From IMG/VR virus record IMGVR_UViG_3300025108_000286, positions 1 to 28,292 of that record: a stretch of 28,292 bases of DNA. One strand, given 5' to 3'. Under the pieces are notes generated by a model that was not told the DNA's origin, made no database searches, and worked only from the letters and a program-made list of their open reading frames with translations. How positions within the stretch are numbered: position 1 is the stretch's first letter; every line of letters starts with the position of its first letter. The DNA is from a virus. Below are positions 3,837 to 28,097 of this stretch, piece by piece. Made by a program: the position numbers and the translations under genes.

Positions 3837-3899
3837 GTCTAACGGGCCATGAGACATTAGGTTGTCCGAAAGCGTATTGTTGTTTGCGGAAGATAGTAC

Positions 3900-3937
3900 A
3901 TTAGAGTAGGTAATCCATACTGTGGGGCTACTCTAAT
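3900..3937 (-). other. 5'-proximal hairpin of the capsid transcript leader
   Basis: ATTAGAGTAG and CTACTCTAAT are perfectly complementary over 10 bp with an 18-nt loop. The predicted start of transcription from the promoter at 3952-3979 is about 3945, so this stem would begin within about ten nucleotides of the mRNA 5' end. Stems in that place are known to stabilise mRNAs in bacteria (ompA-type leaders); here this is inference. Confidence 0.5.
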
Positions 3938-3951
3938 ACACATTATATATA

Positions 3952-3979
3952 GTTATATCATATTTAAATATGTTGTCAA
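3952..3979 (-). promoter_or_regulatory. Sigma70-like promoter for the capsid gene
   Basis: Reading leftward, TTGACA (3979-3974) is followed after 16 nt by TATAAC (3957-3952). The scaffold gene ends just upstream at 3986. The word ATAGTTATATCATA over the -10 region (3949-3962, plus-strand reading) recurs exactly at the lysis-operon promoter (14110-14123), suggesting a shared late-promoter element. Confidence 0.6.
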
Positions 3980-3985
3980 TAGTTT

Positions 3986-10271: not shown

Positions 10272-11861
10272 TTAATAACCAAAGGTAGCATCTGCTACTC
10301 GCATACCACCTTGTGAACTTACGTTTGGATCGTAATCAAATATACTAAATCGTGGTCTTGACATAATACCATACCTCAAAGCATCGTACAAGTGATCTTC
10401 GGAGGTAGTGTCAATATCTTCTGGGTTTCTTTTGTCGATTGGTAAGGCGGGTAATTGAGCAACAATATTGGTACAATTATTAAAGAACACCATACGAGGC
10501 TCTTCTGTATATTCGTCAACCTGTAACCTTCTATGTATTTCGTTTTTACCAGCTACACGTGAGCCTTTGGATCTATCTGAAGGACGCCAACGACACCCAC
10601 GCTGAATCATTTGTTCAGCCAGTGATGGGCCAGTATCACCACGCTTGTGCCATAAAGAGCTATCAAGAACGCCATACTTAATATTTCCATCTTCAGCCTC
10701 TAAATCTAATACCATATCTGCTAAATCAGCAGCTAATACTTTACTTACGTACAACTCTCTATAAATAAACAATTGCTCATTAGGAGCTACGGCAAACCAA
10801 ATTACTCCAGACTTACTTCCATAGCCGTAGTCACATGCTCTAAACTTTACCCAATTACTAGGGATATCAAAAGGATCAACTACGTGTATGTTTCTATCAA
10901 ACTCTGTAAAAGCTGCGCCTTCTTTAATATCCCAATCACCATCTAGTAACTGTCTACGCTGCTGTTCAGGTAAAGATAGAAGCATTGCTTCGTAATCACC
11001 TTGTTCAGCTAGGTAAGGATTATCGGAAAGACGGGCAGGTATAAACCTACGTTTGAATAAAGGCTTACCAGCTTTGGCATGTCCAGCAGGATAAGATAGT
11101 ACCTCAGTCGTTTCAATATCTGTAGCATTAAACGCTTCACCATATGGCGCAGGGTCAATAAACATTTTCTTAACCCAATGATGCCCTCTACCTCCTGGGT
11201 TGGTAGTAGCTCTCATATATACAGGTAAGTCAGAGGCGGTAGATCTCAAGCGACTTCGCATGTAGTTCCAAGCGAATGGGGTAGGCCACTGAGTCAATTC
11301 GTCAAAACCAATCCAGCTAAACGCAAGGCCTTGGTATCTTAATACATCATCTTCTTTATCTAAGTAAGACATCCACAGTCTAGCACCAGAGGGTGCAGTC
11401 CATTGCATCTTACGTTCTGACCACTTAATTCCAGGCCATATCTTAGGATACATTTCCTGTGACTTAAAGATAAGTTCTCTTAGTTCTTCTGTAGTATGTC
11501 GTAGGAGCAATCCTGAGAAGGCTGGGTGGCCCATAAAGCGTAAAGGGTCAGCGAGCATTGCATATGACTTACCCCCACCTGCAGAGCCACCATATAGAAC
11601 CTCACGTTCACCTGCAGCTAAGAAGTCTGTTTGTGGTCCAGCATTAGGTTTAAATATTACATTATGCTGTTCTTCTATAGGTGCTAATTCAGGTTCTACT
11701 ATTTTAGCTGGTTTAGGCTGCGCTTGTTTCTTGGCTGTCGTTGTCTTGCGCTTTTGCCCCGATGCGGTTGCGTTCAATTTCTTCCGCTTTGGCGACTGCC
11801 TTTTTCGCATAGTCTGCCCATCTGCGTAGGCTTCCAGCTTTGTTTTTTCTTCTTCGCTCAT
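10272..11861 (-). CDS. Terminase large subunit
   Basis: 529 residues. The ATPase has Walker A GGSAGGGKS at 91-99, Walker B with catalytic Glu in FDELT at 186-190, and a coupling segment RATTNPGG near 218. The nuclease domain shows the three expected acidic positions: D344 (RACDYGYG), D400 (GVLDSSLW) and D489/D493 (EDHLYDALRYG). It cuts and translocates genome DNA into the head through the portal. Residues 1-60 are Lys/Arg-rich and unlike the family core, and they are encoded where this frame overlaps the upstream gene by 149 nt. A start at M17 (11813) is possible; neither start has a strong ribosome site. Confidence 0.92.
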   Translation of the reverse strand: MSEEEKTKLEAYADGQTMRKRQSPKRKKLNATASGQKRKTTTAKKQAQPKPAKIVEPELAPIEEQHNVIFKPNAGPQTDFLAAGEREVLYGGSAGGGKSYAMLADPLRFMGHPAFSGLLLRHTTEELRELIFKSQEMYPKIWPGIKWSERKMQWTAPSGARLWMSYLDKEDDVLRYQGLAFSWIGFDELTQWPTPFAWNYMRSRLRSTASDLPVYMRATTNPGGRGHHWVKKMFIDPAPYGEAFNATDIETTEVLSYPAGHAKAGKPLFKRRFIPARLSDNPYLAEQGDYEAMLLSLPEQQRRQLLDGDWDIKEGAAFTEFDRNIHVVDPFDIPSNWVKFRACDYGYGSKSGVIWFAVAPNEQLFIYRELYVSKVLAADLADMVLDLEAEDGNIKYGVLDSSLWHKRGDTGPSLAEQMIQRGCRWRPSDRSKGSRVAGKNEIHRRLQVDEYTEEPRMVFFNNCTNIVAQLPALPIDKRNPEDIDTTSEDHLYDALRYGIMSRPRFSIFDYDPNVSSQGGMRVADATFGY

Positions 11862-12141
11862 TATCTAACCGTTTCTTTAATCCTACGTGAGATATGGTTC
11901 TGCCAGTGTTTCGGGTTAGCCAGTTGGCAACCTCACGATACGAGTACTGCTTTAAGTACTTCTTGGCTTTCACAAGCATATCAAGTTCGTTATCAATTGG
12001 CAAGAGTATTCCGTCATCTTCTGGATCTAATTCATATCCAAATGGTACTGTTCTTGCTACACGTGGAATAGGAACCCATTCATTGTCTTCTTGTAGGTCA
12101 GTCGGTTGTGGTAGTTTCCATTGTCCTAATGGCTTAGTCAT
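11713..12141 (-). CDS. Helix-turn-helix protein between the terminase subunits
   Basis: 142 residues from the ATG at 12141, chosen because AGGA lies 5 nt upstream; the ATG at 12147 has AGG directly adjacent. Residues about 60-100 (KYLKQYSYREVANWLTRNTG followed by RTISHVGLKKRLDNERRRK) resemble the helix-turn-helix of resolvase-type recombinases, without a catalytic domain. The C-terminus is basic and helical. It overlaps the small-subunit gene by a few bases and the large-subunit start by 149 nt. A DNA-recognition partner of the terminase is plausible; I do not know a function for the family. Confidence 0.7.
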   Translation of the reverse strand: MTKPLGQWKLPQPTDLQEDNEWVPIPRVARTVPFGYELDPEDDGILLPIDNELDMLVKAKKYLKQYSYREVANWLTRNTGRTISHVGLKKRLDNERRRKNKAGSLRRWADYAKKAVAKAEEIERNRIGAKAQDNDSQETSAA

Positions 12142-12508
12142 CGTCATCCTGTGCTTGTTTAGCTGGCATTAACATAACGCCACCCTTAGCTTCTACCTGC
12201 ATCTTCTCAGTTTTAACTAAACCAGTACGATCTAGTAATTCTTTAGCGGCAGACATTTTATCACGAATACCTAACTCAGTAGGATCATACAAAGCACTAA
12301 CCATAGCCATTGCAGCTTTAGGTACGTTACGTGCTAAGTAGCTGTGTGTTACATCAATAATCTCTTCTTTAAGACTATTGGTTATTTCACGGTTAGGTGT
12401 ATTGGGCGAATACCCAGCAAGTTTCTTAGCCATAGTAACATCGCCACCTGCCTCATCCATAAGTACATCTAAAAACTTTTGTTGACGTTCTGTTAATTCA
12501 CGAGCCAT
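12134..12508 (-). CDS. Terminase small subunit-like protein
   Basis: 124 residues. The N-terminus (LTERQQKFLDVLMDEAGGDV, then KKLAGYSPNTPNREITNSLK) is the helix-turn-helix pattern of small terminase subunits of the Terminase_2 type. The middle (AAMAMVSALYDPTELGIRDK, AAKELLDRTGL) matches the oligomerisation part, and the end is acidic (QAQDDDD). In the family it binds the packaging site and controls the large subunit. It is separated from the large subunit by one HTH gene, so which of the two proteins does the recognition is open. Confidence 0.78.
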   Translation of the reverse strand: MARELTERQQKFLDVLMDEAGGDVTMAKKLAGYSPNTPNREITNSLKEEIIDVTHSYLARNVPKAAMAMVSALYDPTELGIRDKMSAAKELLDRTGLVKTEKMQVEAKGGVMLMPAKQAQDDDD

Positions 12509-12509
12509 A

Positions 12510-12962
12510 TTACATCATTTCAAAATGTGGGGCATCAATAAAAGGTCTACGTCCTTGTGACCTACGGAGATCTACATATGCGTTCATTGCATCTTCTGCA
12601 GTACCAGCATACTCTCTAATGTCTCCTTCACTCCATGCAGCACCCCATTTAATTGCTACATCATTCTTTCTAGCGGCTTCAGCCATAGCATCACAGATGT
12701 CATCATAGACATTGAGTTCCCAAGAAATGTCTGAACCAAAGTATGCAACTAGATCTACAGCACGACCCTCAAGATGCTTAGACTTCATAGTCTGTGATCT
12801 ACCAGATTCGTACAGTTTCTTTTGTTCTTCTAGTGTACGTAGTCCAAAGGTAACACCAAAGTCTACTTTTGTAATACCAATAGCGTCCTTTACGACTGCT
12901 ACAATACCTTCGTCTACACCATCTAGTTTCTTTAAACTTCTACTGCTTAATTTAAATGCCAT
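12510..12962 (-). CDS. M15-family peptidase endolysin
   Basis: 150 residues. The zinc-site pattern of M15/VanY-type peptidases is complete: H63 in SKHLEGRAVDL with D70 (H-x6-D) and H146 in DAPHFEM. VDFGVTFGLRTLEEQKKLY is the typical N-terminal stretch, and KWGAAW is a substrate-side motif. The expected reaction is cleavage of peptide cross-links in peptidoglycan (L-Ala-D-Glu or D-Ala carboxypeptidase type), as in T5 endolysin. No signal peptide is seen, so a holin is needed; two membrane proteins lie directly upstream. The start overlaps the preceding stop as TAATG. Confidence 0.88.
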   Translation of the reverse strand: MAFKLSSRSLKKLDGVDEGIVAVVKDAIGITKVDFGVTFGLRTLEEQKKLYESGRSQTMKSKHLEGRAVDLVAYFGSDISWELNVYDDICDAMAEAARKNDVAIKWGAAWSEGDIREYAGTAEDAMNAYVDLRRSQGRRPFIDAPHFEMM

Positions 12963-13518: not shown

Positions 13519-13764
13519 TTAAGTTCTCCTGAATCTTGAGGTTTTCTTTGCAATTTTCTTAGGCTGAGCCACAAACTGCTGACCTGCCTTCGTGCCTCTT
13601 CGTTTAGCTCTGGTTGTAGCGGCATACTCACTGCTGCTAAGAGACTTAATAGCCTTAGCAGGTAGATACCGCTCACCAGTTTTAGCACTAGGCTTCCCAC
13701 TTTTAGTTCGCCAATCTTGCTTAGTCCATTTCTTTAAAGACTTTTGAGATTTAGAGAGAGCCAC
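13519..13764 (-). CDS. Small basic phage protein
   Basis: 81 residues starting at GTG, overlapping the preceding stop as TAGTG. It is highly basic, with the pattern KSLKKWTKQDWRTKSGKPSA followed by TGERYLPAKAIKSLSSSEYA. I recognise this as a short conserved family in marine phages (DUF5872-like); the family number is from memory. No known enzymatic activity. A nucleic-acid-binding or virion-packaged role would fit the charge, but this is not shown. Confidence 0.7.
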   Translation of the reverse strand: MALSKSQKSLKKWTKQDWRTKSGKPSAKTGERYLPAKAIKSLSSSEYAATTRAKRRGTKAGQQFVAQPKKIAKKTSRFRRT

Positions 13765-13949
13765 TACCTGTAGCCCCCACCTTTTGCTTTGTATTGTTTT
13801 GCGACCATTTGTGCCTTACGTGCGCTCCACTGTCCAGCTTTTCCACCTTTGCTGCCAGCCTTAACGGATGCAACAAGACGTTTGCGCATAGTAGGCTTAG
13901 TATAATTTCCTGCCGCATTAACCGTAGACTTTTTGCCTGATTTCGCCAC
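13764..13949 (-). CDS. Small basic phage protein
   Basis: 61 residues from GTG at 13949, preferred because GGGGAT lies upstream and the product then starts AKSGKKSTVNAAGNY as I remember for this family; ATG at 13967 and GTG at 13982 are in-frame alternatives. The remainder (YTKPTMRKRLVASVKAGSKG, then GKAGQWSARKAQMVAKQYKA) is very basic and Gly-rich. The 5' end overlaps the DUF1127 gene. Family members occur next to the previous gene type in marine phages; function unknown. Confidence 0.65.
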   Translation of the reverse strand: MAKSGKKSTVNAAGNYTKPTMRKRLVASVKAGSKGGKAGQWSARKAQMVAKQYKAKGGGYR

Positions 13950-14058
13950 GACTGATCCCCATGTCATGCAGTTCCTTATCACTTAGATTCATAAGAATCC
14001 AATAGTCGGCTCTGCGTTGCTGATTTTCTTGTAGTTTCTTAAACATACGTTTAAACAT
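13918..14058 (-). CDS. DUF1127-type microprotein
   Basis: 46 residues starting MFKRMFKKLQENQQRRADYW. The second half (LSDKELHDMGISRGEIRQKV) carries the DUF1127 signature L-S-D-x-E-L-x-D-x-G-[IL]-S-R-x-[ED]-I. In bacteria such proteins are short Arg-rich RNA-associated regulators in Alphaproteobacteria and YjiS-like proteins in enterics; a phage copy fits an alphaproteobacterial host. A strong GGAG lies 7 nt upstream of the start but can pair with the leader (see 14062-14113). The gene overlaps the next one by 32 nt. The reading frame and motif are clear; the role in the phage is unknown. Confidence 0.8.
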   Translation of the reverse strand: MFKRMFKKLQENQQRRADYWILMNLSDKELHDMGISRGEIRQKVYG

Positions 14059-14061
14059 ATT

Positions 14062-14113
14062 CTATCTCCTTTACAAATACAAAGGTAAGAAATACTTACC
14101 CTTATGGAGATAG
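14062..14113 (-). promoter_or_regulatory. Leader hairpin covering the DUF1127 ribosome site
   Basis: On the minus strand CTATCTCC (14113-14106) is perfectly complementary to GGAGATAG (14069-14062), which contains the Shine-Dalgarno GGAG of the DUF1127 gene. Inside, CTTACC and GGTAAG form a second 6-bp stem with loop TATTT. The outer stem starts about 8 nt from the predicted transcript start. This would hide the ribosome site until melted or cleaved, so translational control (thermosensor, processing site or protein-bound) is a reasonable reading. Confidence 0.6.
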
Positions 14114-14127
14114 TTATATCATACTTA

Positions 14128-14156
14128 GTTATAACATAGTATAGATAAGATTGCAA
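14128..14156 (-). promoter_or_regulatory. Sigma70-like promoter of the lysis/packaging operon
   Basis: Reading leftward, TTGCAA (14156-14151) is followed after 17 nt by TATAAC (14133-14128), in the 110-nt gap before the DUF1127 gene. ATAGTTATATCATA (14110-14123, plus-strand reading) just downstream is identical to the word over the capsid promoter. Confidence 0.55.
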
Positions 14157-14168
14157 CCCCGTTATGCA

Positions 14169-23549: not shown

Positions 23550-23803
23550 TGCGTATGTCAAGTAATGATTGGTGGGAGTATCTCAAGTGGGCTTCTTCCC
23601 ACCACCTTACGGAAACATTTCCAGATGCGGTTTTATCTGACTCAGAAACTGATGAGTATGAAATGCATGAGGAACGTTTAACATGGATAGATCTTCATGT
23701 TACAGAACGTAACGAAAACAGGGATAGAGATGATATTTTTGATGAGATACATGTGCTTGCTGTAAGCGCATATGAATTGGTAAAGGAAAAACTTAATGCC
23801 TAA
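23549..23803 (+). CDS. Small acidic hypothetical protein
   Basis: 84 residues, TAATG-coupled to the DUF932 gene and overlapping the recombinase start by 8 nt. Highly acidic (SDSETDEYEMHEERLTWIDL, NENRDRDDIFDEIHVLAVSA), helical in the second half. Coupling on both sides suggests a small partner. A DNA mimic is possible from its charge but unsupported otherwise. Confidence 0.65.
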   Translation: MRMSSNDWWEYLKWASSHHLTETFPDAVLSDSETDEYEMHEERLTWIDLHVTERNENRDRDDIFDEIHVLAVSAYELVKEKLNA

Positions 23804-24920
23804 ACTACCACGCTATGTACAAGAACGAGCTTCACCCTCTGGGGTGATCTCATACCGCTTTAACCCGCCACAGAACCTTGTTGATGAGGGTGTGGTCAAA
23901 CGTGAGGAATATGGTACAGACTTAAAACAAGTACGCAAGATTGTTCGTGATCACAATAAGGCGATTGATACGTGGCGTGAAGAACAATCACAGATTGTAC
24001 GAATAAAGTCTAGCAGCAAGGTTACTGATCTCATTAACTATTACTATATGTCTAATGATTTCAATGCGTTACGTCATACAACTAAGGTTGACTACAGGTA
24101 CTTTCTGACTGTGCTGCACCAGACTATGGGGTGGCGTAAGTATGAACACGTTACCTCTAAGGTTGCAAAGCAAGCATATGAAGAGTGGGTCAAACGTGGC
24201 ATCAGTTTCGCTAATCATGCGGCAACATGTGCCAGTAGGGTGTACAACTACGCAATACAAATGGAGCATACCACGTACAATCCTTGGGCAAACATTAAGC
24301 GTAAGTCACCACAACAGCGTAAGGTAGTGTGGACACATGATGATGTTGTCAAGTTTCTTGACGTAGCATACAGTGACTTTGAGTATCGTAACATTGGCCT
24401 GATTGTTCAGATGGCATACGAGTGGTGCCAGCGACTAGGTGACATGCGTATGTTGACGTGGGATAACATTGACTTTCGTACTCAGAAGCTCACACTTGAG
24501 CAGAGTAAACGTAGGGCTGACGTAGAGCTACCAATATCAGAGGATCTATTGCACATGTTGAATGAACAGCGTACCGACTTTGGTTTTCAAGACTACGTTG
24601 CCCCACATCCTAGACCTACGGATGGTTCGTATAACCCCTATGCTATGGAGAGACTATCCAAAGTGGGTAGAAGGGTAATGCGTCTAGCTAAACTACCCGA
24701 AGAGTTACGTCTTATGGACTTACGTAGGACAGGTGTAACACAGATGGTGGATGCTGGTGTACCATTGCCCCAAGTTATGGCAGTGACAGGACACAATCAT
24801 GTGTCTTCTGTGAAACCATATATGAAACATACTTACACAAGTGCAAATAGTGCCTTGACACAGAGAAACGTAAGTGTATCCTTGAGTGGAGCGAACAGCA
24901 TAGAAAGTGATACAGCATGA
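23796..24920 (+). CDS. Tyrosine recombinase / integrase
   Basis: 374 residues. The N-terminal arm-binding and core-binding parts cover about 1-170. The catalytic domain has R213 (CQRLGDMRML), K236/K238 in QSKRR, MDLRRTG (307-313) in place of the usual H-x-L-R-R-T, TGH with H333, and the nucleophile candidate Y342 (SVKPYMKHTY) 9 residues later. So the first His of box II is Met while Arg310 and the rest are present. It should make site-specific DNA strand exchange, either for lysogeny or for genome resolution. No repressor or clear attP is seen in the window. It overlaps both neighbouring genes, inside the replication operon. Confidence 0.88.
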   Translation: MPKLPRYVQERASPSGVISYRFNPPQNLVDEGVVKREEYGTDLKQVRKIVRDHNKAIDTWREEQSQIVRIKSSSKVTDLINYYYMSNDFNALRHTTKVDYRYFLTVLHQTMGWRKYEHVTSKVAKQAYEEWVKRGISFANHAATCASRVYNYAIQMEHTTYNPWANIKRKSPQQRKVVWTHDDVVKFLDVAYSDFEYRNIGLIVQMAYEWCQRLGDMRMLTWDNIDFRTQKLTLEQSKRRADVELPISEDLLHMLNEQRTDFGFQDYVAPHPRPTDGSYNPYAMERLSKVGRRVMRLAKLPEELRLMDLRRTGVTQMVDAGVPLPQVMAVTGHNHVSSVKPYMKHTYTSANSALTQRNVSVSLSGANSIESDTA

Positions 24921-25684: not shown

Positions 25685-26908
25685 ATGGAATTATCATTGA
25701 TACGTAGTCTGATGGACAAAGACTTCTATGACGAGCATCGTGGTGCACGTTGTCCAGACAGACTATTCAGTAAAGATGTACGCAAGATCAAGCAGTCTAT
25801 TGACACTGCTATGGATCGCTATGAGCGTACAGTTACACCAGCAGAGATTGAGGCATTGTTCATGGCGAACAACCCTACTCTCACAACCGCACAGAAGACT
25901 GCCTACAGCCACCTGTTTGGGCAGGTAAGCAAGGAGCAGCCAATGGGCAGTGACGTAGCACAAGAGGTGCTGTCTAAGCTGTTCCAACAGGTAATCGGTG
26001 AAGACATTGCCAACCTTGGCTTTGATTATGTAAATGGTAGCAAGTCTACACTAGAGCCATTACGTCAGATGCTTGAGCAGTATGGAGATGACTTCACACC
26101 CAACCTACGTATTGATTGGGAAGACATTGACCTTGATACTATCCTTGCCATGACTGACCTTGAGTCACAGTGGACATTCAACATCCCTACGTTGACACGT
26201 AAAGTTGAGGGCATTAATGCCGGTCACTTGATTGAGGTAGGTGCACGTCCTAACACAGGCAAGACATCCTTTCATGCCTCACTTGTGGCTGGGCCTAACG
26301 GCTTTGCATGGCAGGGTGCCCGTGTTGTTGTGTTGTGTAACGAAGAAGGCTACCACCGTGTGGCTCATCGCTACATCACGGCAGCTACAGGCATGGACAA
26401 GTTTGAGATTGTTAAGAACAAACAGGAAGCCATGCGTGTCTTTGGTCAGATACGTGACAAGATCATGTTCAAGGATGCAACAGGACGTGACATGAACTGG
26501 GTGGAGTCTGTGTGCAAGTCATACAAACCTGACGTAGTTATCTTAGACATGGGCGACAAGTTTGCCCGTACCGCTGGCTTCTCACGTCCTGATGAGGCAC
26601 TCAAGGCTAACGCCATACAAGCACGTCAGATTGCCAAGCAGCAAGAGTGTGCTGTGTTCTATATGTCTCAGCTATCTGCAGAGGCAGAAGGTAAGGTTGT
26701 ACTCAACCAAGCCATGATGGAAGGCTCACGTACAGGTAAGGCAGCAGAAGCTGACCTTATGATTATGATCTCCAAGAACCCTACAGTTGAGGGTCAAGAG
26801 GAAGAAGACAACCAACGCCACATCAATGTGGTCAAAAACAAATTGTCTGGGTGGCACGGCATTGTTCACACAGATCTTGAATACAAGATAGCGAGGTACG
26901 TATCATGA
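25685..26908 (+). CDS. Replicative DNA helicase, DnaB/T7 gp4 type
   Basis: 407 residues, 3 nt after the primase. Residues 1-150 are a helical N-terminal part. The RecA-like domain has Walker A GARPNTGKTS (186-195), a CNEE motif (218-221), Walker B VVILDMGD (284-291) and YMSQLS (326-331). The C-terminus (KNKLSGWHGIVHTDLEY) fits hexameric SF4 helicases. It should unwind the replication fork and pair with the separate primase. Confidence 0.88.
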   Translation: MELSLIRSLMDKDFYDEHRGARCPDRLFSKDVRKIKQSIDTAMDRYERTVTPAEIEALFMANNPTLTTAQKTAYSHLFGQVSKEQPMGSDVAQEVLSKLFQQVIGEDIANLGFDYVNGSKSTLEPLRQMLEQYGDDFTPNLRIDWEDIDLDTILAMTDLESQWTFNIPTLTRKVEGINAGHLIEVGARPNTGKTSFHASLVAGPNGFAWQGARVVVLCNEEGYHRVAHRYITAATGMDKFEIVKNKQEAMRVFGQIRDKIMFKDATGRDMNWVESVCKSYKPDVVILDMGDKFARTAGFSRPDEALKANAIQARQIAKQQECAVFYMSQLSAEAEGKVVLNQAMMEGSRTGKAAEADLMIMISKNPTVEGQEEEDNQRHINVVKNKLSGWHGIVHTDLEYKIARYVS

Positions 26909-27453
26909 TGTATGAGGATACATTAGAGGCAGTGTGCACTACGTGTTCCACAAAGCTGACGATAGATAACTGGGCACAGTCTTGGCGTAACATTGGTAGA
27001 AAGCAATGCACCAGTTGTTCTAGAGATTACAACGTGTCCAGTAATCAAAATCGCATGTGGGTAAACGGTAAGTATATACCCCAATCACACCCCTTGTACA
27101 AGGCAGGTAGATATAAGTCCTTTGGTGACGCTGCATTTAGCTCCTTACAGAAAGACAAGCAGATCAGTGAGGGCTATGTGTACGCAATACAAAATACTGC
27201 ATGGCCTGAGTGGGTGAAGATTGGTAAGGCTGTTGATGCAGAAGACAGGCTTAATGGATACCAGACAAGCTCACCCATGCGTGACTACACTCTGTTGTAC
27301 TACAGATACTTTGATGATCGTAATACAGCAGAAAAGAAAGCGCATATCTTAGCTGCGACACAAACGACACACCCTTGGAACAAACATGACAACGGTGAAT
27401 GGTTTAAGCTGACACAACAGCAAGCAATAGATATAATAAAGGAGATACAATGA
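26905..27453 (+). CDS. T5orf172/GIY-YIG-type protein with zinc finger
   Basis: 182 residues, overlapping the helicase gene by ATGA. C11-x2-C14 and C35-x2-C38 form a zinc ribbon (VCTTCSTK, QCTSCSRD). From residue 90, EGYVYAIQNTAWPEWVKIGK, then DRLNGYQTSSPMRDYTLL and AEKKAHILA, follow the T5orf172/GIY-YIG pattern with the Y-x-Y start, the V-K-I-G-K motif, and R115. A nuclease or DNA-binding role is expected. It sits between helicase and ThyX, so a repair or recombination nuclease in replication is plausible, but a homing enzyme cannot be excluded. Confidence 0.75.
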   Translation: MMYEDTLEAVCTTCSTKLTIDNWAQSWRNIGRKQCTSCSRDYNVSSNQNRMWVNGKYIPQSHPLYKAGRYKSFGDAAFSSLQKDKQISEGYVYAIQNTAWPEWVKIGKAVDAEDRLNGYQTSSPMRDYTLLYYRYFDDRNTAEKKAHILAATQTTHPWNKHDNGEWFKLTQQQAIDIIKEIQ

Positions 27454-28097
27454 TACAAACATTTTACGTAGACCACATGGGTACAGACTTATCTGTAGCT
27501 AATGCAGCACGAGTAAGTTTTGGTAAGCGTAGTGAGATGGATACGAGTGACGTATGGGGGCCACCCAAGTTGAAAGACAAGGATGCCAAGCTCATACGTT
27601 ACTTAGCCAAGCACAAGCACATCAGCCCATTTGGGCATTGCTTTGCCAGCTTCCACGTTAAGGCACCTGTGTTTGTTGCACGTCAGCTAGTCAAGCACAA
27701 GTTCCTACGTTGGAATGAAATCAGCCGTAGGTATGTAGACCATGAGCCTGAGTTCTATCAGCCTACAGAATGGCGTGGACGTAGTGCTGACAAGAAGCAG
27801 GGCAGTGAGGGTGTGGTTGACGTAGGTGATTGGGGCGATACAAACTGGGCCTGTCTTATTGCCTACAAGGATTTACTTAATCATGGTGTATGCCCTGAGC
27901 AAGCACGTATGGTACTGCCACAGTCTATGATGACTGAGTGGTACTGGTCAGGTAGCTTGGATGCATTTGCTGACATGTGTAATCTACGTTGTAAGCCTGA
28001 CACACAGTACGAGACACAGGTTGTGGCTGGTCATATTGACACAGAGATGGCTAAGCTGTTCCCTGTATCATGGAAAGCATTAAGGGAGAATGAATGA
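27450..28097 (+). CDS. thyX: Flavin-dependent thymidylate synthase ThyX
   Basis: 215 residues, ATGA overlap with the previous gene. The ThyX signature region is KHKFLRWNEISRRY (82-95) against R-H-R-x-x-S-x-N-E-x-S-x-R: both Arg are Lys and the Ser is Arg, but H83, N89, E90, S92 and R94 are kept. Further matches are SPFGHCFASFHVKAPVFVAR (59-78) and QARMVLPQSMMTEWYWSGSL (151-170). It makes dTMP from dUMP with FAD and methylene-tetrahydrofolate, supplying thymidine for phage replication. The substitutions are unusual but the fold looks intact. Confidence 0.88.
   Translation: MIQTFYVDHMGTDLSVANAARVSFGKRSEMDTSDVWGPPKLKDKDAKLIRYLAKHKHISPFGHCFASFHVKAPVFVARQLVKHKFLRWNEISRRYVDHEPEFYQPTEWRGRSADKKQGSEGVVDVGDWGDTNWACLIAYKDLLNHGVCPEQARMVLPQSMMTEWYWSGSLDAFADMCNLRCKPDTQYETQVVAGHIDTEMAKLFPVSWKALRENE

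Follow-up and report, generated by a model that had tools for sequence, protein, structure and literature searches.

Small proteins of the DUF1127 family are known from bacteria, with CcaF1 of Rhodobacter sphaeroides, a set of small Agrobacterium proteins and the enterobacterial protein YjiS as described examples. Excerpts of a 2025 study report that DUF1127 proteins act via the sensor kinase PhoR (PMC12501420). The synthesis of one family member, encoded by duf1127_1 of S. meliloti, is described in excerpts of PMC12218461 as being controlled in the leader by an upstream open reading frame (uORF) and transcription attenuation. In phage T4, the genes e, soc, 49 and I-TevI are subject to translational locks (PMC3014915, in excerpt). 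For gene e, the same excerpt describes a long early RNA that is locked, whereas RNA from late promoters, which are located ahead of the ribosome site, is missing the 5' strand of the structure.

Here, we analyze a phage-borne DUF1127 gene and its leader in a virus record of 28,292 bases, the whole of which is referred to below as the window. The phage protein has the core and profile of the family in common with its bacterial counterparts. It differs from them in its genetic setting, since the gene sits before packaging genes and under a predicted lock on its Shine-Dalgarno (SD) sequence. A literature search of titles and abstract openings returned no work on phage DUF1127 or on its leader. 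On balance, we favor the idea that the synthesis of phage DUF1127 is controlled by a promoter-in-lock leader, in which read-through RNA would be silent and locally begun RNA open.

Results

The DUF1127 gene lies at 13918..14058 on the minus strand, precisely at the positions given for it in the first-pass annotation, which named no strand, and encodes a protein of 46 amino acids (MFKRMFKKLQENQQRRADYWILMNLSDKELHDMGISRGEIRQKVYG). The annotation had assigned this product to the DUF1127 family, and a profile search confirms the assignment: PF06568 is matched with an E-value of 1.4e-7 and 31.6 bits, above the curated cut-off of 23.3, over positions 4-37 of the 37 in the profile, and the match is the only one in the whole record. 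The family core, L..L(S/T)D.eL.DiGi.R..i, is present, with L22, D27, L30, D32, G34 and R37 being invariant among 34 aligned phage proteins. In the relatives fetched, the reading frame is open rather than absent or broken, and the 689 usable pairs among 41 distinct 46-residue ORFs yield a median dN/dS of 0.128 at a median dS of 1.03, which places dS near saturation; by this estimate, the ORF is under purifying selection. The profile match marks it as a genuine DUF1127 protein. Its predicted fold, comprising a long helix (residues 2-23) and two short ones (27-32 and 37-45; mean pLDDT 85.7, pTM 0.57), is that of a small, basic, helical protein. Arginine accounts for 5 of the 46 residues (11%), a proportion between the 5.5% and 14% quoted in excerpts of PMC12501420, the latter being the average stated there. 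Among the 55 bacterial loci fetched, the nearest counterpart shares 49% identity with the phage protein.

The large terminase subunit (TerL; 10272..11861, minus strand) of the window is 88.1% identical to that of CRP-345 and 82.6% identical to that of HMO-2011, and its coat protein shows 86.2% identity to CRP-1 and 75.0% to HMO-2011. Judged by these similarities, the window phage is an HMO-2011-type podovirus; it encodes a helicase, and the sequence stops after thyX. A tblastn search (E up to 10) matched 42 phage-collection records, and TerL identities of at least 60% were found in 14 phage records, comprising 11 isolates (CRP-1, -2, -3, -9, -13, -207, -212, -235, -345, -603 and -738), HMO-2011 twice and MW202701. 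When 18 whole phage records were searched with the profile, DUF1127 was detected in 13 of them, namely the 11 isolates, all of them Roseobacter HMO-2011-type phages with hosts from the Rhodobacteraceae, and two of the two cobaviruses tested. The same search gave no DUF1127 in HMO-2011 (SAR116), MW202701 (host unknown), HTVC033P and HTVC104P (both Pelagibacter) or phiM6 (Sinorhizobium). The cobavirus gene lies between mazG and the gene for ribonucleotide reductase, and matches above the cut-off were also obtained for Melnitz-3, phiM19 and DSS3_MAL1. By this profile evidence, DUF1127 is carried by several phage groups, mostly on Alphaproteobacteria, and its presence in groups other than the HMO-2011 type suggests that it was captured repeatedly. 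The family is already named in the records of CRP-603 ("DUF1127 domain-containing protein") and three Melnitz phages; in HMO-2011-type roseophages, the gene is mostly annotated as hypothetical. A term search of the accessible text of a 2022 paper on the HMO-2011-type group found no mention of either DUF1127 or promoters; in excerpts, the paper characterizes these phages as dominant in the ocean and widely distributed there (PMC9038755).

The HMO-2011-type roseophages carry the gene at the same place as the window. There, DUF1127 is followed on the same strand by an ORF of PHROG 17747, an ORF of PHROG 14910, two more small ORFs, the endolysin (12510..12962, minus strand; PHROG 465, E 1.4e-48; PF13539), the small terminase subunit TerS (12134..12508, minus strand; PHROG 2538, E 2.4e-6) and TerL. 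The gene had been described as heading a lysis/packaging operon, which is accurate for the window. Across 91 related loci, made up of the 11 isolates and the best 80 of 296 IMG/VR relatives from a profile-guided search, all with a DUF1127 gene, only the packaging part of this description is constant: TerS lies downstream of DUF1127 in 91 of 91 loci, so that the gene indeed keeps its place in related phages. The window-type endolysin is located downstream in 18 of these loci and upstream in 3, the corresponding numbers for the CRP-207-type lysozyme are 3 and 8, and neither type was found in the stretches examined for the remaining ones. The next gene, of the PHROG 17747 family, is placed at 13764..13949 (minus strand) with a putative start codon, its PHROG match beginning at residue 13 of ORF 13764-13982. 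Within the 46-residue group, matches to it in relatives start 111-117 nt past the DUF1127 start. Since its homologous part thus begins ahead of the DUF1127 stop codon, the two genes may be translationally coupled.

Upstream of the DUF1127 gene, the SD region GGAGATAG (14062..14069, minus strand) is predicted to form the 3' arm of a lock, engaging in eight uninterrupted pairs with an anti-SD arm, CTATCTCC (14106..14113, minus strand), which constitutes the 5' arm. Between them lies an inner hairpin, ATAAGGGTAAG-loop-CTTACCTTTGT (14079..14105, minus strand). For the stem CTATCTCC/GGAGATAG, at most 12 of 500 shuffles were as good (p 0.024), and the longer leader RNA of the window folds with -25.9 kcal/mol (z -4.17), matched by none of 200 shuffles. 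This bears out the earlier description of the leader as switch-like. Across related loci (92 including the window, of which L045 was too short), 91 leaders were available and 71 of them are distinct, the IMG/VR part again being the best 80 of 296. The SD is predicted to be closed, with a mean unpaired probability below 0.2, in 56 of the 71 distinct leaders, as opposed to 8 of 55 control genes, these being the SD-bearing ones among 167 typed starts in the 11 isolates after 112 without an SD in range had been dropped. Within the window, where 47 starts were examined, DUF1127 alone falls below 0.2 among the 22 that bear an SD.

For 18 of 24 leader clusters, opening the SD costs more than it does in dinucleotide shuffles (p<0.05; Fisher 5e-18, a value that treats the clusters as independent, which is not fully true). 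The clusters that do not beat their shuffles are L018, which holds the window (representative p 0.37), L029, L070, CRP-3, CRP-2 and CRP-603. A test for uninterrupted stems, which is blind to bulged ones, returned p<0.05 (uncorrected) in 45 of 69 leaders; no SD was detected in CRP-2 and CRP-603. The pairing of at least two SD bases with upstream sequence was dropped as evidence, because it is seen in 70 of 70 leaders yet is also common among shuffles (75%) and control genes (28 of 55). Among bacterial DUF1127 starts, 17 of the 51 that have an SD (4 of 55 loci dropped) show an unpaired probability below 0.2 for it, a share above that of the phage controls. A host origin of the leader was considered and rejected: bacterial leaders are mostly strongly folded, and a covariance model of the phage leaders found no match in the 28 of 55 host loci searched. 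Rfam gave 0 matches above the gathering score in the whole window, with one sub-threshold match of chance level near the leader.

Support for the anti-SD arm also comes from an alignment (A2) of 31 rows (23 distinct), built from leaders with short loops. Its nine pairs hold in 98.1% of cells, and sliding the partners by 1-3 columns reduces pairing to 35-62%. Two-sided changes are found in five pairs and 41 cells. Shuffles gave 15.7 cells, with none of the 500 reaching 41; five such pairs, on the other hand, are unexceptional, 31 of 500 shuffles attaining this number, and there are fewer pair types than in shuffles. In this alignment, the letters of the arms vary between phages while pairing survives via two-sided changes. 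Leaders outside A2 use yet other letters for the same pairing, such as GCTCCAGTT/AACTGGAGC (L077), GTCTCCTGC/GCAGGAGAT (L075) and AAACTCTCCTTAGT/ACTAAGGAGAGTTT (CRP-235). Within its 73 sources, the covariance model mentioned above (R1) detects 17 of the 35 HMO-2011-type DUF1127 leaders, of which 10 are rows from which it was built, and misses those in which the loop is long or the arm is shifted; the notion of a single model covering all leaders was therefore abandoned. Elsewhere in the 73 sources, including five relatives without the gene and the 28 host loci, R1 found no match. HMO-2011 lacks both the DUF1127 gene and the leader at this place, and it keeps the TATAACTA box ahead of its capsid gene. 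Given that HMO-2011 has neither gene nor leader and that R1 stays blank where the gene is absent, the lock appears to be tied to the DUF1127 gene and not to the operon.

Two -10-like boxes, both reading TATAAC, can be recognized on the minus strand of the window. The inner one (P2; 14113..14118), which has TGA before it, would give a start near 14105, and the outer one (P1; 14128..14133), located 17 nt from a -35-like TTGCAA (14151..14156, minus strand), a start near 14120. By predicted fold, P1 RNA would keep the whole lock; RNA begun at P2 would carry the inner hairpin at its 5' end and leave the SD free. The arrangement TTGCAN-17-(-10) recurs in 37 of the 71 distinct leaders, with a spacing of 17 in 37 of 37 cases even though 16-18 were allowed. 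Just upstream of the outer -10, many leaders have in common, by eye, an upstream box, GCATAACGGGGTTGCAA (GCATARCGGGNWTGCAA; 14151..14167, minus strand), which is possibly an activator site; the exact ACGGGNWTGCAA occurs once in the window. An inverted repeat, GCATA...TATGC, is visible by eye at this box in some phages.

A TATAAY box is present in 70 of the 71 distinct leaders, L047 being the one without it, and overlaps or follows the anti-SD arm. With the RNA start set, as a rule of thumb, 7 nt past the last TATAAY, the predicted start excludes every SD partner in 58 of 70 leaders. On a stricter count, which calls for at least three of four SD bases to have upstream partners and for every partner to lie 5' of the predicted start, 47 of 70 leaders qualify, as against 23% of shuffles in which box and SD region were kept. 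The predicted start is the very next base past the arm in 28 of the 52 leaders with stems of at least 7 pairs, and the base at this position is a purine in 33 of 39. TGN, the mark of an extended -10, precedes this last box in 41 of 70 leaders (chance 1 in 16). In RNA begun at TATAAY, the SD is predicted to be unpaired (>0.5) in 53 of 69 leaders. The by-pass geometry is retained in CRP-235, CRP-738 and the L075 group, in which the arm lies wholly upstream of TATAAT. For 11 of 70 leaders, RNA begun at the last TATAAY retains all SD partners. Nine of these distinct leaders belong to one subgroup, which has TAAAAC as its inner box and the outer box as its last TATAAY; the other two are CRP-2 and CRP-603, where it is apparently the start codon that the lock covers.

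A promoter scan of the window listed neither P1 nor P2, because its rule demands T as the last -10 base; it returned 10 promoter-like sites, fewer than the 15.6 in shuffles. TATAAYTA was discarded as a genome-wide promoter word, with 5 occurrences in the window versus 4.0 expected. Scanning of the minus strand between 11000 and 17600 revealed no terminator-like site, which makes read-through into the leader plausible. An intrinsic terminator in the leader was likewise rejected, as there is no terminator-like site on the minus strand and the relatives lack a T run past the inner stem. A pause of the lambda-Q type was considered for the double -10 box and set aside, there being no terminator to anti-terminate. 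At the capsid gene of the window (3860-3985, minus strand), a strong promoter-like stretch has TTGACA followed after 16 nt by TATAAC and then TATAAT, with a 10-bp hairpin far ahead of the start codon; in HMO-2011, the TATAACTA box of this gene is accompanied by a hairpin with other letters.

Discussion

Family membership, synteny, purifying selection, the covarying hairpin and the absence of the arm from any RNA that starts at P2 are computed features of the locus. In the mechanism we propose, RNA arriving from upstream or begun at P1 would contain the anti-SD arm and, because this arm pairs with the SD, leave the gene silent. RNA begun at P2 would lack the arm, since P2 overlaps or follows it, so that the ribosome site would be open; in the window, this short RNA would carry a small hairpin of its own at its 5' end. 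Synthesis of DUF1127 would then be confined to times at which the local promoter is active, presumably upon activation of the packaging operon. We infer that P2 is a promoter, and the same applies to the timing of its firing and to the binding target of the protein.

The nearest known mechanism is the T4 gene e lock. In both cases, the SD is closed in the long RNA, in the phage DUF1127 leader by prediction only. In T4, the -10 box (TATAAATA) lies within the stretch that encodes the 5' strand, so that locally begun RNA is open (PMC3014915, in excerpt); the inner -10-like box shows a compatible geometry in most DUF1127 leaders and would, if it is a promoter, have the same effect. The two systems nevertheless differ in several respects. 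The window comes from an unrelated podovirus group, its type of box resembles host-type -10 sites, and window-type leaders often have a second box and TTGCAA upstream. Moreover, the guarded gene is DUF1127 rather than lysozyme, and the window lock is a predicted one, whereas translation of T4 lysozyme from the long RNA drops 100-fold. S. meliloti duf1127_1 provides another parallel, in that a DUF1127 gene is under leader control and its ribosome-binding site is paired within the leader (PMC12218461, in excerpt). There, control relies on uORF translation and premature termination, whereas in the phage an arm pairs with the SD of the gene itself; with a P1 leader of probably ~60 nt, little room would be left for a uORF.

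The same features can be read in other ways. It is conceivable, albeit unlikely, that the leader is a regulated switch on P1 RNA, acted on in trans by the DUF1127 protein itself, another protein, an sRNA or temperature, and that the inner TATAAY is no promoter. The constant P1 spacer, the presence of the whole lock in P1 RNA, the retention of P1 in the subgroup with TAAAAC as its inner box and the binding of RNA by the DUF1127 protein CcaF1 (PMC12501420 and PMC10253847, in excerpt) are all compatible with such a switch. However, the loop and the inner stem differ between groups, giving no sign of a common site for a ligand or protein, stems of 8-9 pairs with 4-5 G-C would make improbable thermometers, and both the by-pass geometry and the TGN before the inner box are left unexplained. 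The promoter-in-lock model has a cost of its own, as P1, if real, gives locked RNA, for which it offers no explanation.

We consider it improbable that the hairpin mainly protects the 5' end of the late mRNA or serves as an RNase III site, with the closing of the SD as a side effect. The capsid promoter of the same phage does have its 10-bp hairpin near the inferred start and far from the SD, and so does HMO-2011 have a capsid-promoter hairpin, in other letters. At DUF1127, by contrast, the SD region itself supplies the 3' arm across groups, the two changing in concert, and a stabilizer has no need of the SD. The idea that the ORF is merely a leader peptide coupled to the overlapping next gene, its sequence being irrelevant, draws on the homology of that gene, which begins inside the DUF1127 ORF in the 46-residue group, but it is hard to reconcile with the low dN/dS (near-saturated dS notwithstanding), the conserved DUF1127 core and the next annotated gene in CRP-212, CRP-3 and CRP-9, which does not overlap; we regard it as very improbable. 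A bolder version of the promoter-in-lock reading would hold that the stretch from -10 to start doubles as an anti-SD for the first gene in read-through RNA, making the leader a compact stage switch by which the ribosome senses the point of origin of the RNA, that this arrangement arose outside T4-like phages and that it guards a captured host regulator for alphaproteobacterial takeover, a proposal to which we would give slightly less than even credence.

As the DUF1127 core is kept, the phage protein most likely imitates host DUF1127 proteins or competes with them at their targets, be it RNA or the sensor kinase PhoR. The earlier protein-level view, according to which it would bind RNA and change the RNA or sRNA metabolism of the host, is a possibility we hold tentatively. 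It agrees with the predicted basic helical fold and with the Rhodobacteraceae hosts of the 11 isolates. Excerpts of PMC12501420 and PMC10253847 document the binding of RNA by Rhodobacter CcaF1, but the former report no evidence of it for Salmonella YjiS. It is also imaginable, if rather doubtful, that the phage protein acts on PhoR, the sensor kinase of the host, or on a different kinase and retunes phosphate uptake during infection. In favor of this, phage DNA synthesis requires phosphate. According to excerpts of PMC12501420, DUF1127 proteins of A. tumefaciens as well as E. coli YjiS interact with PhoR and homologs from other species complement, but the proteins studied there restrain phosphate uptake, so that the gain for a phage is not obvious. 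No phosphate gene was seen among the window ORFs profiled, which are part of all its ORFs. The sequence by itself does not choose between RNA binding and PhoR binding. A phage DUF1127 protein under selection offers a direct route to testing RNA versus kinase binding in the bacterial family discussed in these excerpts (PMC12501420).

Our literature searches returned no paper on the transcription program of HMO-2011-type phages, in which a conserved lock would reveal the timing of one regulator. For reporter tests, the covarying leader is a cheap and well-defined object.

Some further features of these genomes lie outside the DUF1127 region. The right arm of the window encodes, on the plus strand, a tyrosine integrase (23796-24920), a protein with a T5orf172/MUG113 domain (26905-27453) and ThyX (27450-28097). 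Because of the integrase, the window phage may be temperate; integration of CRP-3 is stated in excerpts of PMC9038755. A cell wall hydrolase (PF07486; 22224-22619, plus strand) belongs to the rightward module, apart from the endolysin of the late operon. In the late region of HMO-2011 (L153 2456-3538), upstream of the lysozyme gene, an ORF is annotated as methanesulfonate monooxygenase alpha subunit.
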